A stretch of 64,000 bases of DNA, taken from positions 1-64,000 of the forward strand of contig CACBDV010000002.1 of NCBI GenBank assembly GCA_902538085.1. Reading direction: 5' to 3'. This document shows, piece after piece, positions 13,896-19,807 of the stretch. This stretch comes from an uncultured Alphaproteobacteria bacterium. Its GTDB lineage: Bacteria > Pseudomonadota > Alphaproteobacteria > HIMB59. The notes under the pieces were generated by a model. The model did no database searches. It was given only the letters and a program-made list of their open reading frames with translations, and was not told the DNA's origin. Position 1 is the stretch's first letter; each line of letters begins with the position of its first letter. A program made the position numbers and the translations under genes.

Positions 13896-15215
13896 TTATA
13901 ATAAAGGCGACCAAGCCGGGTCACTTCCATCCCTTGGAGTCGGAATGATTCTTTCATTGTAACCAGTAATATCAATAAAATGTATTGTTACCTCCCCTCC
14001 AGTGCCATCAAGATTTGACCTTTTTTGTCTGTGAAATATTAAATATCTGCCATTTGGGGACCATGCTGGTGACTCTAGGGCAAAATCCCTTACTATAACT
14101 CTTTCATTATTTCCATTTAGGTCCATAACACCTATATGGAAGTTGCCCTGGGTCAACTTTGTAAATGCTATCAAATCGCCTCTTGGAGACCAAACTGGAT
14201 TTCCATACACACCTCTACCTTTTGAAATTCTTTTAATGTTATCTCCATTCTTATCCATAATGAATAATTGGGGACTTCCACCACGATCAGAATTAAAAAC
14301 AATTTTTTCACCATCAGGAGAAAAAGAGGGTGAAGTGTCAATTCCAGAATCGTTTGTTAATCTTGAGCGAGAACGAGTGTTTAAATCCATTAAATATATT
14401 TCTGAATTTGCCGCATTGTTGGGATCTGAAAAAGACATTACTACACTTTGGCTATCTGGTGAAAACCTCGGTGCAAAAGTCATTCCGGGAAAATCTCCAA
14501 CAATTTCTCTTTCACCTGTTTTAAGATTGTAAATATAAACTCTTGGAAGATTATTTTTGTATTCCATATATGTTATTAATTGTTTATTTGGTGCAAAGCG
14601 AGGAGTTAATACCATATTTTTTCCATCTGTTAAAAATTGATGACTATCTATATGTCCATCTTGATCCATGATTGCTAGTCTTTTTACTCTTTGATCAAGC
14701 GGGCCAATTTCGGAAACATAAACAATTCTTGTATCGAAGTAACCTGTCTCACCAGTAATCCTTTCATAAACAATATCGCTTACTGTATGACCCACTCTTC
14801 TTATTAAATTTTCATCAGGTATTGTTAGTTGTAATTTCTCTATCTCTTTTGCATTAAAAACATCATAAAGCCTCATTCTTAGTCTTATACCTTTATCGAT
14901 TTTACTGACATCTGCACTTAATAAAAACTGTGCCTTGATTAATTTCCAGTCTTCAAATCTTGGAACTTTTTCAACTAAATTGTCTGATTGGATGTAAAGG
15001 TCCTCATTCACAGTATAAAAAAGTCCAGAATTAGTAAGATTATTTGAAATAATTTGTCTAAGTGTGTTTCCGTATCTAGCTGTGTCTGAGTCAGCTCCAA
15101 AGATTTGAGTTATAGCTATAGGAGTGGGCTCAACTTTACCTTGTGCAATGGTTACCTCTAATGCAGCGTTTGCATTAAATGAAAAAAACAAAATTATTAG
15201 GATTTTTTTAATCAT
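13896..15215 (-). CDS. tolB: Tol-Pal system beta-propeller protein TolB
   Basis: Signal peptide; repeats PRFSPDSQSVVMSFSD, PSFSPDGEKIVFNSDRGGSPQLFIMD, PVWSPRGDLIAFTK, PAWSPNGRYLIFHR. Confidence 0.96.
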   Translation of the reverse strand: MIKKILIILFFSFNANAALEVTIAQGKVEPTPIAITQIFGADSDTARYGNTLRQIISNNLTNSGLFYTVNEDLYIQSDNLVEKVPRFEDWKLIKAQFLLSADVSKIDKGIRLRMRLYDVFNAKEIEKLQLTIPDENLIRRVGHTVSDIVYERITGETGYFDTRIVYVSEIGPLDQRVKRLAIMDQDGHIDSHQFLTDGKNMVLTPRFAPNKQLITYMEYKNNLPRVYIYNLKTGEREIVGDFPGMTFAPRFSPDSQSVVMSFSDPNNAANSEIYLMDLNTRSRSRLTNDSGIDTSPSFSPDGEKIVFNSDRGGSPQLFIMDKNGDNIKRISKGRGVYGNPVWSPRGDLIAFTKLTQGNFHIGVMDLNGNNERVIVRDFALESPAWSPNGRYLIFHRQKRSNLDGTGGEVTIHFIDITGYNERIIPTPRDGSDPAWSPLL

Positions 15216-15260: not shown

Positions 15261-16266
15261 TTAATCAAACATCCAGCTGAAATCAAAAGTAAAGTTAATT
15301 TCTTTCCACTGTTCATATTTATCAGCAGGTAATAAAAGAGGGCTACAATCTGGATTATTTACTGCTCTCATTGCAGCTTCAGCAGCAGTTCTAAATGATG
15401 GATCATTTAATTTTTCTTTATTCACTACTTTAGAACTTTTTACAGTTCTGTCAGGGTTAACTTCAATGTATATGACAGGTTTTATTTCTTTTAAATTTGC
15501 GACACCAACATTAAGATTTAAACAGCCATGTAATTGTTGCCTTAACAAATCAATTTCTGAAATAGTCATCGTTGGTCCAACTTTTTCTGTGAAAACCTCC
15601 TCTTGTTTGACTTCAGATGCTTCTTGCTCTTTTTTAAATTCTTTATCTTGATTTTCTAAATCTTTTAGAACAGTACTAACATTAAAAGTTTTCTTTACAG
15701 GCTTTTTCTTGACAACAATCTCGATATCTTTTTTGGGTTCAGGTATTTCTTTAAGTTCAGGTTTTTGTTTTAGTTTGATCTCAAAATCATTTTCTATAGG
15801 TGGCGGTGTCTCCTCTTCTGGTTTTTTTAATTTCAGGTTTTACTTTCTCATCAATAATAAATTCGTTTGTTTTTTCTGAAGAATTATCAACTAATACTTC
15901 TTCATTAGTATCCTGAATTATTGGATCAATTGGCTCTTGAGATGTTATTTCTTTTAATTCTGGTTCAATAGCCTTAGTTTCATTTTGCTTTGTTGTCTCT
16001 TCTTGAAATGTTGGAACAATTTCATTTAACTCTTCAACAAATTCAGGTGCAGCTGTCTCTTCCTCAATAATGAACATTTCAACCGGTAAAATCATTGGAA
16101 TATCACTTATTTTTTTTTCAAAAGTAAAATTTATCATTGGTATCAAAATTAATAGGTGTAATAGAAAAGAAAATATTTGGAAATAAAAATCACTTTTTTT
16201 ATAACTGAAATTTTCAATGAATAAGATTAAATTTCTGAAAGGGTTAAATAGTGAAATAGTAGACAC
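15261..16266 (-). pseudogene. tolA: tolA interrupted by an apparent +1 frameshift at an A7 tract (15822-15828); two ORFs 15787..16266 and 15261..15569
   Basis: N-terminal TM segment + Pro/Glu/Lys-rich stalk in one frame; the rest of the stalk (KKPEEETPPIENDFEIKLKQKPELKEIPEPKKDIEIVVKKKPVKKTFNVSTVLKDLENQ...) and TolA C-domain (IDLLRQQLHGCLNLNVGVANLKEIKPVIYIEVNPDRTV...SFRTAAEAAMRAVNNPDCSPLLLP) in the other. Span is 1006 nt = 335 codons + 1. May still be functional. Confidence 0.85.
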
Positions 16267-16662
16267 TTAACTTGGTTTTTTCGTCACAAGAGCAATTTTT
16301 AAAAAACCAGATGTATTCAGAGCGCCAAGAACCTTCATTACTTCTCCATAATTTATTGTAGTATCAGCTCTTAAAAAAATTCTTATGTCAGTATTTGAGC
16401 CTGCAATAGTTTTAACTTTTAATATTAACTCATCAAAAGGTATTAATTCTTCACCTAAGTAAATTTCATTATTTTTATTAATTGAGATTTCAAGTGGTTC
16501 CTTTTGTGCATCTAAAGAATTAGCCTCAACTTTTGGCAAATTAACTGGAACACCCACAGTTAAGAGTGGAGCTGTGACCATAAACACAATAAGTAAAACC
16601 AACATAACATCAACCATCGGTGTGACATTTATATTAGAAACAGGTCGATGTTTTTTTCTCAT
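16267..16662 (-). CDS. tolR: TolR (ExbD/TolR family)
   Basis: PVSNINVTPMVDVMLVLLIVFMVTAPLLTVGVPVNLPK. Confidence 0.96.
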   Translation of the reverse strand: MRKKHRPVSNINVTPMVDVMLVLLIVFMVTAPLLTVGVPVNLPKVEANSLDAQKEPLEISINKNNEIYLGEELIPFDELILKVKTIAGSNTDIRIFLRADTTINYGEVMKVLGALNTSGFLKIALVTKKPS

Positions 16663-17368: not shown

Positions 17369-17695
17369 TTACTCTTCATCAATTATCTTTTTATTTTTAA
17401 GCTCTTTGGAAACATTCTCAAAATCATCTGAATGTACCATTATCCAAAAACCAGGTCTATTTTTTTCACATAATGCAATGACTGGGGTCTTTTTTTCCTT
17501 TTCTGCTAAAGATTTTGTGTCATCCCATAATTTAATAGCAGTGTGTTTAGCTCTTAATTTACACTCAATGAATAATTTATCGTGTATTACATCAGAATGA
17601 GTAACTTTTGAATTGATCCCACTAAGGGCATTTCTCATACCTCCAAAAAACTTTGCTACAAGTCTTTCCCTATTTTTCCAAGCTTTATCAGGCAT
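17369..17695 (-). CDS. Small PD-(D/E)XK-like nuclease / candidate Holliday-junction-resolvase-like protein
   Basis: 108 aa; KAWKNRERLVAKFFGGMRNALSG...HSDVIHDKLFIECKLRAKH...KKTPVIALCEKNRPGFWIMVHSDDF matches the D-x(n)-(I/F)E-x-K layout of small phage-type PDDEXK endonucleases. Confidence 0.6.
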   Translation of the reverse strand: MPDKAWKNRERLVAKFFGGMRNALSGINSKVTHSDVIHDKLFIECKLRAKHTAIKLWDDTKSLAEKEKKTPVIALCEKNRPGFWIMVHSDDFENVSKELKNKKIIDEE

Positions 17696-18428
17696 TATGA
17701 GCCTCTAGTAGTTCACTATCAAAATCAAGATTTGAAAAACAATTTTGAACATCATCATTATCTTCTAACTCTTCATTTAATCTAATTAGCTTGTCAAGCT
17801 CTTCCTTTTTTTCAATCTTAACGATTAAATTCGGCTTCCAAATAATATTTGCACTTTCAATTTCAAATTTTTTATCAACTAGTATTTTCTCAAAAGATGG
17901 TAATGCTTCAAAAGAAGAGTAAAGGTATGTTACGTGATCCTCTGTATTATAATCCTCTAAACCATGATCTAGTAAATCCTCCAGTACACTATCATCTATT
18001 TCTTTTTTTATTTGTATCTCTCCTACTTTATTAAAATTAAAGCTTACACTCCCTGTCTCTCCCAAATTCCCCCCATTTTTTGAAAAAATAGATCTAATTT
18101 CTGAAGCTGTTCTATTTTTATTATCTGTTAAGGCCTCAACAATAAAAGCTGTTCCAAATGGGCCATAGCCCTCATAACGAACTTCTACATAATCAGAAGC
18201 GTCAGTATTATTTTTATTGATAGCTCTGTCTACATTATCCTTAGGCATATTTACACTTCGAGCATTTGTTATAGCAAGTCTCAATCTTGGATTGGACTCT
18301 GGGTCAGTTCCTCCAATCTTCACAGCAATTTGAATTTCTCTTCCTATTTTTGCAAATTGTTTTGCTCTTTTTTTATCCTGAGCGCCTTTACGATATTGAA
18401 TATTTTTAAATTTTGAATGTCCTGCCAT
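17688..18428 (-). CDS. yebC: YebC/PmpR family transcriptional/translational regulator
   Basis: MAGHSKFKNIQYRKGAQDKKRAKQFAKIGREIQIAVKIGGTDPESNPRLRLAITNARSVNMPKDNVDRAI. Confidence 0.97.
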   Translation of the reverse strand: MAGHSKFKNIQYRKGAQDKKRAKQFAKIGREIQIAVKIGGTDPESNPRLRLAITNARSVNMPKDNVDRAINKNNTDASDYVEVRYEGYGPFGTAFIVEALTDNKNRTASEIRSIFSKNGGNLGETGSVSFNFNKVGEIQIKKEIDDSVLEDLLDHGLEDYNTEDHVTYLYSSFEALPSFEKILVDKKFEIESANIIWKPNLIVKIEKKEELDKLIRLNEELEDNDDVQNCFSNLDFDSELLEAHNA

Positions 18429-18431
18429 GAG

Positions 18432-19247
18432 CTAAGATAATAAATTACTATCCAAAACGCCACCTATTTGAATAGATTGAATTGAATTCGTGTCTCCCTC
18501 TTTTGTAGTTATGACTGCTCCAGAAATAGTGGCCAATCCATCAGAGGGTTCTAATCTATGTGAGTTCGATCCGGTTCTCATTCTTTTGATAGCGCTTTCT
18601 TTTTTCATACCAATAACAGAATTATAATCTCCTGTCATGCCAATATCAGTTTGAAAACAAGTGCCTTTTTCTAATACCCTAGCGTCTGAGGTTGGAATAT
18701 GAACATGAGTCCCATATATAGCTGTAAATTTTCCATCATAATTTTGAGCTATACCATTTTTTTCAGATGTTACCTCAGCATGTACCTCTAAAAATGAATA
18801 ATCTATTTCATGGTCATTAATTATAGATAAAAGTTGTGTATCAATAGAATTAAAAGGATTACTTAAGGGAAGGTCAATGAATGTTTGACCATGAACTTGG
18901 CTTACCAATATTCTTTTTCCATTTTTATGAGTAAAAATTTTAAACCCCCTACCAGGGGATCCAACTTCGAAATTTAATGGTCTAATGATATTATGATCTG
19001 GGTTTTTATCCATGTATTCTATGATCTCTTTTTGTTTCCAAGCATGATTTCCTAAAGTGATAGCATCAGCACCCCAACTTATGAGCTCTTCGTAAATTTT
19101 TCCTGTAAGTCCATAACCACCAGCTGAATTTTCAGCATTAATTATTGTAAAGCTAATTTTAAATTGATCTTGAATCTTTTTTAAATTTTCTTTTAGAGCT
19201 GTTCTACCTGATCTACCAACAACATCTCCTATCACTAAGAAATTCAT
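18432..19247 (-). CDS. YmdB/TIGR00282-family metallophosphoesterase
   Basis: MNFLVIGDVVGRSGRTAL...INAENSAGGYGLT...DAITLGNHAWKQKEI...LEVHAEVTSEK...AIYGTHVHIPTSDARVL...DIGMTGDYNSVIG. ORF extends to 19274. Confidence 0.93.
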   Translation of the reverse strand: MNFLVIGDVVGRSGRTALKENLKKIQDQFKISFTIINAENSAGGYGLTGKIYEELISWGADAITLGNHAWKQKEIIEYMDKNPDHNIIRPLNFEVGSPGRGFKIFTHKNGKRILVSQVHGQTFIDLPLSNPFNSIDTQLLSIINDHEIDYSFLEVHAEVTSEKNGIAQNYDGKFTAIYGTHVHIPTSDARVLEKGTCFQTDIGMTGDYNSVIGMKKESAIKRMRTGSNSHRLEPSDGLATISGAVITTKEGDTNSIQSIQIGGVLDSNLLS

Positions 19248-19807
19248 AAAGAATAGATTTTTTGTTCTGAACAAATGTAATCTACTTTTTGGTCAAAACT
19301 CTCCTGAAAATTGTAGTTAGTTTTTTGAATTTCAAAAGCAGCTAAAATAGTTTTTAAATTTCTTTTTTTTCTCAATTCATCAATAGTTCTATCAAAAAAA
19401 CCACCTCCATAGCCTACTCTAAAACCTTGTTCATTAAATGCAGAGCATGATGATATAATTATATCAGGATCTAATGTCTTTTCACCCTTGGGTTCCATTA
19501 TACCGCCAAAACCTTTTTCTAAATTAGGACTATGAGGGTTGTATTCAAAGTACTTTAAAGAGGATCCTTTTGAAGTTACTTTGGGAAGTAAACATTTGAT
19601 ATTTTTATTTATTAAATCATTAGAAATTCTCAATACATCAACCTCATTTTTATATGGATAAAATAAGCCAACAGAACTTTTTGGATTAATTTTTTCAATT
19701 AAATCTAATATTTTTGAATTTATTTTATTAGAAAAAATATTTAAATCCGAAGTGCTTAGTTGCATTCTTAGTTCCAAGTGATGTTTTCGAATTTGTTTTT
19801 TATTCAA
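19244..19807 (-). CDS. 5-formyltetrahydrofolate cyclo-ligase
   Basis: Start MNKKQIRKHHLELR; FRVGYGGGFFDRTIDEL motif. Confidence 0.9.
   Translation of the reverse strand: MNKKQIRKHHLELRMQLSTSDLNIFSNKINSKILDLIEKINPKSSVGLFYPYKNEVDVLRISNDLINKNIKCLLPKVTSKGSSLKYFEYNPHSPNLEKGFGGIMEPKGEKTLDPDIIISSCSAFNEQGFRVGYGGGFFDRTIDELRKKRNLKTILAAFEIQKTNYNFQESFDQKVDYICSEQKIYSL

Follow-up and report, generated by a model that had tools for sequence, protein, structure and literature searches.

A predicted Hjc-like, phage-type Holliday junction resolvase in the ruvCAB slot of HIMB59-order marine bacteria

In bacteria of the HIMB59 order, an Hjc-like phage-type enzyme of 108 residues, whose activity is predicted, stands in the ruvCAB slot of the chromosome and, together with RecG, probably does the job of RuvABC. 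We describe its gene in the window, i.e., the whole stretch of 64,000 nucleotides that was analysed (contig CACBDV010000002.1), where it lies on the minus strand between yebC and tolQ, exactly as an earlier note on this DNA had placed it: an ORF of 108 aa at 17369-17695 that shares 8 nt with yebC and leaves a gap of 3 nt to tolQ. The downstream gene order given in that note, tolQ-tolR-tolA-tolB-pal-ybgF-tilS-ftsH-glmM, is likewise correct save for a frameshift in tolA. The locus comprises the following features:

17369..17695, minus strand: predicted Hjc-like PD-(D/E)XK Holliday junction resolvase, phage-type, 108 aa; E10, D35, E44 and K46 predicted to be catalytic, R21 invariant
17688..18428, minus strand: yebC, with an 8-nt overlap with the resolvase ORF; in many bacteria paired with ruvC, on its upstream side (PMC3403352)
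16667..17365, minus strand: tolQ, beginning 3 nt past the resolvase stop and bounding the former ruvCAB slot downstream
16267..16662, minus strand: tolR, conserved downstream context
15261..16266, minus strand: tolA, two ORFs through a 1-base frameshift in the assembly
13896..15215, minus strand: tolB, conserved downstream context
18432..19274, minus strand: ymdB-like phosphodiesterase gene, conserved upstream context

A core gene between yebC and tolQ

The 108-aa gene belongs to the single-copy core of the HIMB59 order. Scanning 84,980 species genomes (GTDB) recovered 57 loci, all from marine alphaproteobacteria (records of HIMB59, MarineAlpha5 and MarineAlpha6 type as well as marine single-cell genomes), and the position between yebC and tolQ is kept in all 57. 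Within the HIMB59/AEGEAN-169 order, the gene is present in 126 of 150 genomes and in 20 of the 20 with a completeness of at least 90%, and nearly all of the 126 carriers hold one copy each. A second match occurs in one genome of the order (G134:C14:22923-23216, minus strand), within a 305-aa open frame, and is possibly a fusion, a prophage or an assembly duplicate. At the f2-like loci, which form a more distant group, the resolvase is 68-76% identical to the window protein, the corresponding values being about 50% for YebC and about 47% for TolQ. Within the genus-level group of the window, pairwise dN is about 0.01-0.10 against a dS of 0.3-2.5, indicating strong purifying selection on the gene; these low dN values, together with 57 genomes that encode the gene between yebC and tolQ, exclude a chance ORF.

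As for the flanking genes, the ymdB-like phosphodiesterase gene is also found upstream of yebC-ruvC in ruvC-bearing relatives. In the window, tolA is broken in the region 15570-15800 (minus strand) by the 1-base frameshift into ORFs 15787-16266 and 15261-15569. It forms a single 334-aa frame in the close relatives L001 and L002, and the frameshift probably arose as an error in assembling or amplifying this genome. In a MAG of a more distant relative (L033:6400-7520), tolA is likewise in two frames, and this low-complexity gene may often carry frameshifts.

Fold, active site and family of the 108-aa protein

The AlphaFold model of the protein (pLDDT 88.5, pTM 0.82) contains a helix at residues 2-17, a strand at 41-47, a helix at 53-66, two strands and a C-terminal helix. 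E10 lies within helix 2-17 and strand 41-47 bears E44-x-K46, and the model therefore presents the alpha-beta core with E in helix 1, D and E-x-K by which PD-(D/E)XK enzymes are recognised; the motifs to which the earlier note had drawn attention, KAWKNRERLVAKFFGG and SDVIHDKLFIECK, are found in the protein. In a Foldseek search of this model against the PDB, the fold comparison that the note had called for, archaeal Hjc structures came first and filled ranks 1-11, with probabilities up to 0.97 and TM up to 0.53 at E-values of only 0.02-0.06. An AlphaFold model based on 30 close sequences had matched Hjc less strongly, and a more diverse alignment strengthened these matches. Hjc of Pyrococcus furiosus, identical in sequence to 1gef, carries E9 R10 in helix 1, R25, D33 and E46-x-K48, and in our reading these map to E10 R11, R21, D35 and E44-x-K46. 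Alignment of 32 diverse homologues, reaching down to 32% identity, shows that W6, E10, R21, G26, D35, H38, L41 and K46 are invariant and that E44 is conserved in at least 90% of sequences; the catalytic D/E/K residues are conserved among orthologues and divergent phage homologues, as the nuclease reading of the earlier note demanded.

At the sequence level, hhalign of the family profile against the single Hjc sequence 1gef gives an insignificant probability of 2%. PDB sequence searches, whether by the protein or by its profile, returned noise only, with no match to a solved structure and no Hjc among the profile matches, and Pfam and NCBIfam profile searches gave no match, including to RuvC (PF02075) and RusA (PF05866). 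Membership of the Hjc sequence family proper is not supported, given the hhalign value and the missing PDB-profile Hjc and Pfam matches; RuvC identity is ruled out by the missing Pfam match and a fold other than RNase H, and RusA identity by its own missing Pfam match. On the basis of fold and active-site layout, we regard the protein as Hjc-like in its working, which does not imply membership of the Hjc sequence family. It resembles archaeal Hjc (PDB 1gef, 2wcw/2wcz/2wj0) in size, in the helix-first PD-(D/E)XK core, in the order E...D...ExK and in giving its best fold matches, yet the sequence relationship is undetectable beyond the motifs, and the setting here is a bacterial chromosome and phages.

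The family that the protein does match is PHROG_2002, "Holliday junction resolvase" (2e-9; residues 3-102 on positions 16-120 of the 130-position profile), which is also matched by an f2 member (1e-10), an f25 member (1e-8) and phage members, PHROG annotations being themselves inferred. With this phage family the protein shares a full-length profile match and marine phage relatives of up to 77% identity, whereas here the gene is a core chromosomal gene of a whole bacterial order. The 108-aa protein is most likely a phage-type, Hjc-like PD-(D/E)XK endonuclease. In Bacteroides phage BS162P1 (L144 7323-8315), the homologue lies within an ORF of 330 aa, in its C-terminal third; the ORF is annotated as HNH homing endonuclease I-HmuI and is possibly a homing nuclease fused with a resolvase domain.

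Absence of RuvABC and probable recurrent replacement in one slot

None of the 150 genomes searched from the order, one of them a 99%-complete single-contig genome, has RuvC (PF02075); nor were RuvA_N (80 genomes), RuvB_C, the C-terminal domain of RuvB (40 genomes), or RusA (60 genomes) detected. RecG (RecG_wedge) was detected in 32 of 40 genomes and undetected in eight, two of which belong to the 20 with at least 90% completeness. Control genomes gave matches in every one of these searches. RuvB_N matches were obtained in 149 of 150 genomes (E of about 1e-6 to 1e-8), in ORFs mostly of about 420 or 540-600 aa; given these ORF sizes, we infer that they are RarA-/DnaX-like AAA+ cross-hits and, with RuvB_C absent from all 40 genomes searched, do not accept them as RuvB. 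The genome searches suggested in the earlier note thus came out in favour of its interpretation, with RuvC, RuvA, RuvB and RusA not found and RecG found. Its statement that ruvC, ruvA, ruvB and ybgC are missing holds for the three ruv genes, and extends to the genome and the whole order; ybgC is seen to be absent from the slot only.

Class-wide, RuvC is present in 353 of 385 sampled alphaproteobacterial genomes; the 32 that lack it include all nine carriers of the new gene in this sample (five of the HIMB59 order, four of family f25). In ruvC-bearing alphaproteobacteria, yebC lies near ruvC in 19 of 20 sampled ruvC loci, and the arrangement yebC-ruvC-(ruvAB space)-tolQ is seen in 13 of the 20, tolQ having been sought within the fetched stretch; according to a published survey, about half of the organisms with RuvC have yebC in the ruvC operon (PMC3403352). 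It is thus the ruvCAB slot that the new gene occupies. With RuvABC absent across the clade and the substitute present in every genome of at least 90% completeness, the displacement pattern is found, and the 108-aa gene appears to have displaced all three genes, ruvC-ruvA-ruvB, in their chromosomal slot.

Other phage-type resolvases stand in the same place. In the complete 1.2-Mb genome G246 (f99), the order is yebC - 165-aa gene - ybgC - tolQ, and the 165-aa product matches phrog_1770 (Holliday junction resolvase; 5e-36) and shares 43% identity with the resolvase of Salmonella phage epsilon15. G266 (f119) has yebC, a 166-aa phrog_1770 gene (8e-22), a ybgC-like gene and tolQ. In G197 and G321 (f50; L147/L200 and L201), yebC is followed by a 168-aa gene, tilS and ftsH; its product matches PDDEXK_15, "Phage putative PDDEXK endonuclease", at 2e-21 as well as the phrog_244 RusA-like resolvase, and shares 44% identity with proteins of PA5oct-like Pseudomonas phages. 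The tol genes are absent between resolvase and tilS-ftsH at these f50 loci, unlike in the window. RuvB_C was found in none of the eight RuvC-less genomes of f99, f119, f50 and f25 examined. At least three unrelated phage-type resolvase families occupy this slot in genomes without RuvC and RuvB, and this recurrence is the strongest argument that the gene in the window does the work of RuvABC. The pattern is not universal among RuvC-less alphaproteobacteria, since in G345 (L202 3575-5000) and G282 (L204 312-1919) yebC is followed by no recognisable resolvase; in two further RuvC-less genomes a contig edge lies close to yebC. The slot was examined in a part of the 23 RuvC-less genomes of the class sample that do not carry the new gene.

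Accordingly, in the yebC-tolQ survey proposed in the earlier note, relatives that have ruvC carry it in the slot, and those without ruvABC carry this gene or another phage resolvase there. Its idea that RuvC, or RuvABC, was displaced in one lineage stands as to displacement, and for the whole RuvABC set, but not as to the single lineage, the event being order-wide and recurrent. On balance, we favour the view that the yebC-tolQ slot is a recurrent site where phrog_2002, phrog_1770 and PDDEXK_15/phrog_244 enzymes displaced the whole of RuvABC in situ, phrog_2002 perhaps entering more than once (HIMB59 order and f25), and that a single autonomous phage enzyme plus RecG resolves junctions there without the RuvAB motor.

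Phage relatives, function and precedents

Many close homologues, with 57-77% identity to the window protein, are present in IMG/VR, and this abundance of relatives is in line with the proposed phage derivation of the gene. A large terminase gene follows the homologue immediately or lies within about 1 kb in 87 of 112 viral loci, and at L091 the homologue sits between the small and large terminase subunits; in the more distant phages L217 and L232 it lies between a helicase and an exonuclease/DNA polymerase. Such terminase and replication-module settings fit an enzyme that debranches DNA or resolves junctions and so clears concatemers for packaging, as phage resolvases are held to do (PMC3864405). 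In the tree, the cellular copies fall into three groups (f1, f2 and f25) amid phage sequences. On an alignment of 100 columns in which some phage rows are long branches, the AU test rejected a single cellular clade that includes f25 (p 0.0185) and did not reject a single clade of f1 and f2 (p 0.21), which is only suggestive as to how many times cells acquired the gene. Phage-to-cell transfer is the simplest reading; in part, transfer may also have run from cells to phages.

The promiscuity typical of phage resolvases (PMC3864405), and debranching as the job in the packaging and replication modules that house the phage homologues, would also suit a broad-substrate debranching or flap/fork structure-specific endonuclease that acts mainly at stalled forks rather than serving as a dedicated Holliday junction resolvase. 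We consider this unlikely: it is the ruvCAB slot that is occupied, all three ruv genes are lost order-wide, other lineages have replaced ruvCAB at the same slot by other resolvase families, and junction resolution is compatible with broad specificity. Less probable still is a Vsr-like, restriction-like or anti-phage repair/defence nuclease of phage origin, with the loss of RuvABC an unrelated result of genome streamlining. The genomes are indeed streamlined (1.2-1.6 Mb), and some of the 32 class genomes that lack RuvC, out of 385, have no replacement in the slot; however, a PADLOC search of the 108-aa gene found no match to a defence system, the gene is universal, slow-evolving, single-copy and within a housekeeping operon, unlike defence genes, and the coincidence with the ruvCAB slot is repeated by unrelated resolvase families. 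A catalytically dead or regulatory DNA-binding relic, for which it can be said that the activity is predicted only, is hardly credible with the catalytic E/D/E-x-K kept in cells and phages and a low dN/dS.

Resolution of Holliday junctions and other branched DNA is the most likely function of the 108-aa protein. RecA-made joint molecules and reversed forks would be branch-migrated by RecG as its putative partner; the small enzyme, presumably a homodimer by analogy with Hjc, would bind the four-way junction without RuvAB and cleave it by nicking two strands through metal-dependent hydrolysis at E10/D35/E44/K46, and ligase would seal the nicks. Because the order has RecG, lacks RuvABC and RusA and keeps a phage-type resolvase, and in view of the E. 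coli RusA-RecG and bIL67 RuvC precedents, a fixed "RecG plus autonomous resolvase" pathway is suggested.

RuvAB together with a RuvC or RecU resolvase is counted as part of the bacterial recombination core, which is nearly universal and rarely transferred (PMC1193525). Non-orthologous resolvase displacement is already known: RecU, a resolvase of another family, displaced RuvC in Firmicutes/Mollicutes, with RuvAB retained and RecU seldom at the ruv locus (PMC1193525). RecU works with RuvAB, whereas the HIMB59 order is without RuvA and RuvB and has the newcomer in the ruv slot. In E. coli, RusA substitutes for RuvABC, with RecG required (PMC5055574), and we propose that the HIMB59 arrangement may be the natural counterpart of this bypass in ruv mutants, an autonomous resolvase with RecG replacing RuvABC in both. 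RusA belongs to another family and is normally unexpressed in E. coli, whereas the HIMB59 arrangement is fixed and order-wide. RuvC of phage bIL67 is by itself enough to make an E. coli ruvABC deletion mutant UV-resistant again (PMC3864405), and is likewise a RuvAB-independent phage resolvase that can replace RuvABC in vivo; as a RuvC-family enzyme, it resembles the f99/f119 slot genes more closely than it does the HIMB59 gene. In the literature covered, which included few subscription journals, we found no description of a complete RuvABC loss in which a phage resolvase holds the very same position throughout an order and which recurs with different families, and no paper treating both HIMB59 and ruvC; the HIMB59 genome papers examined mention no ruv genes, Holliday junctions or resolvases.

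Collectively, an abundant marine order and several other alphaproteobacterial families are without RuvABC and carry phage-type resolvases at the old locus. They amount to a natural experiment that bears on three questions: do cells need a RuvAB-coupled resolvasome at all, how does housekeeping DNA repair pass to phage genes, and what makes a single chromosomal slot accept such genes time after time?
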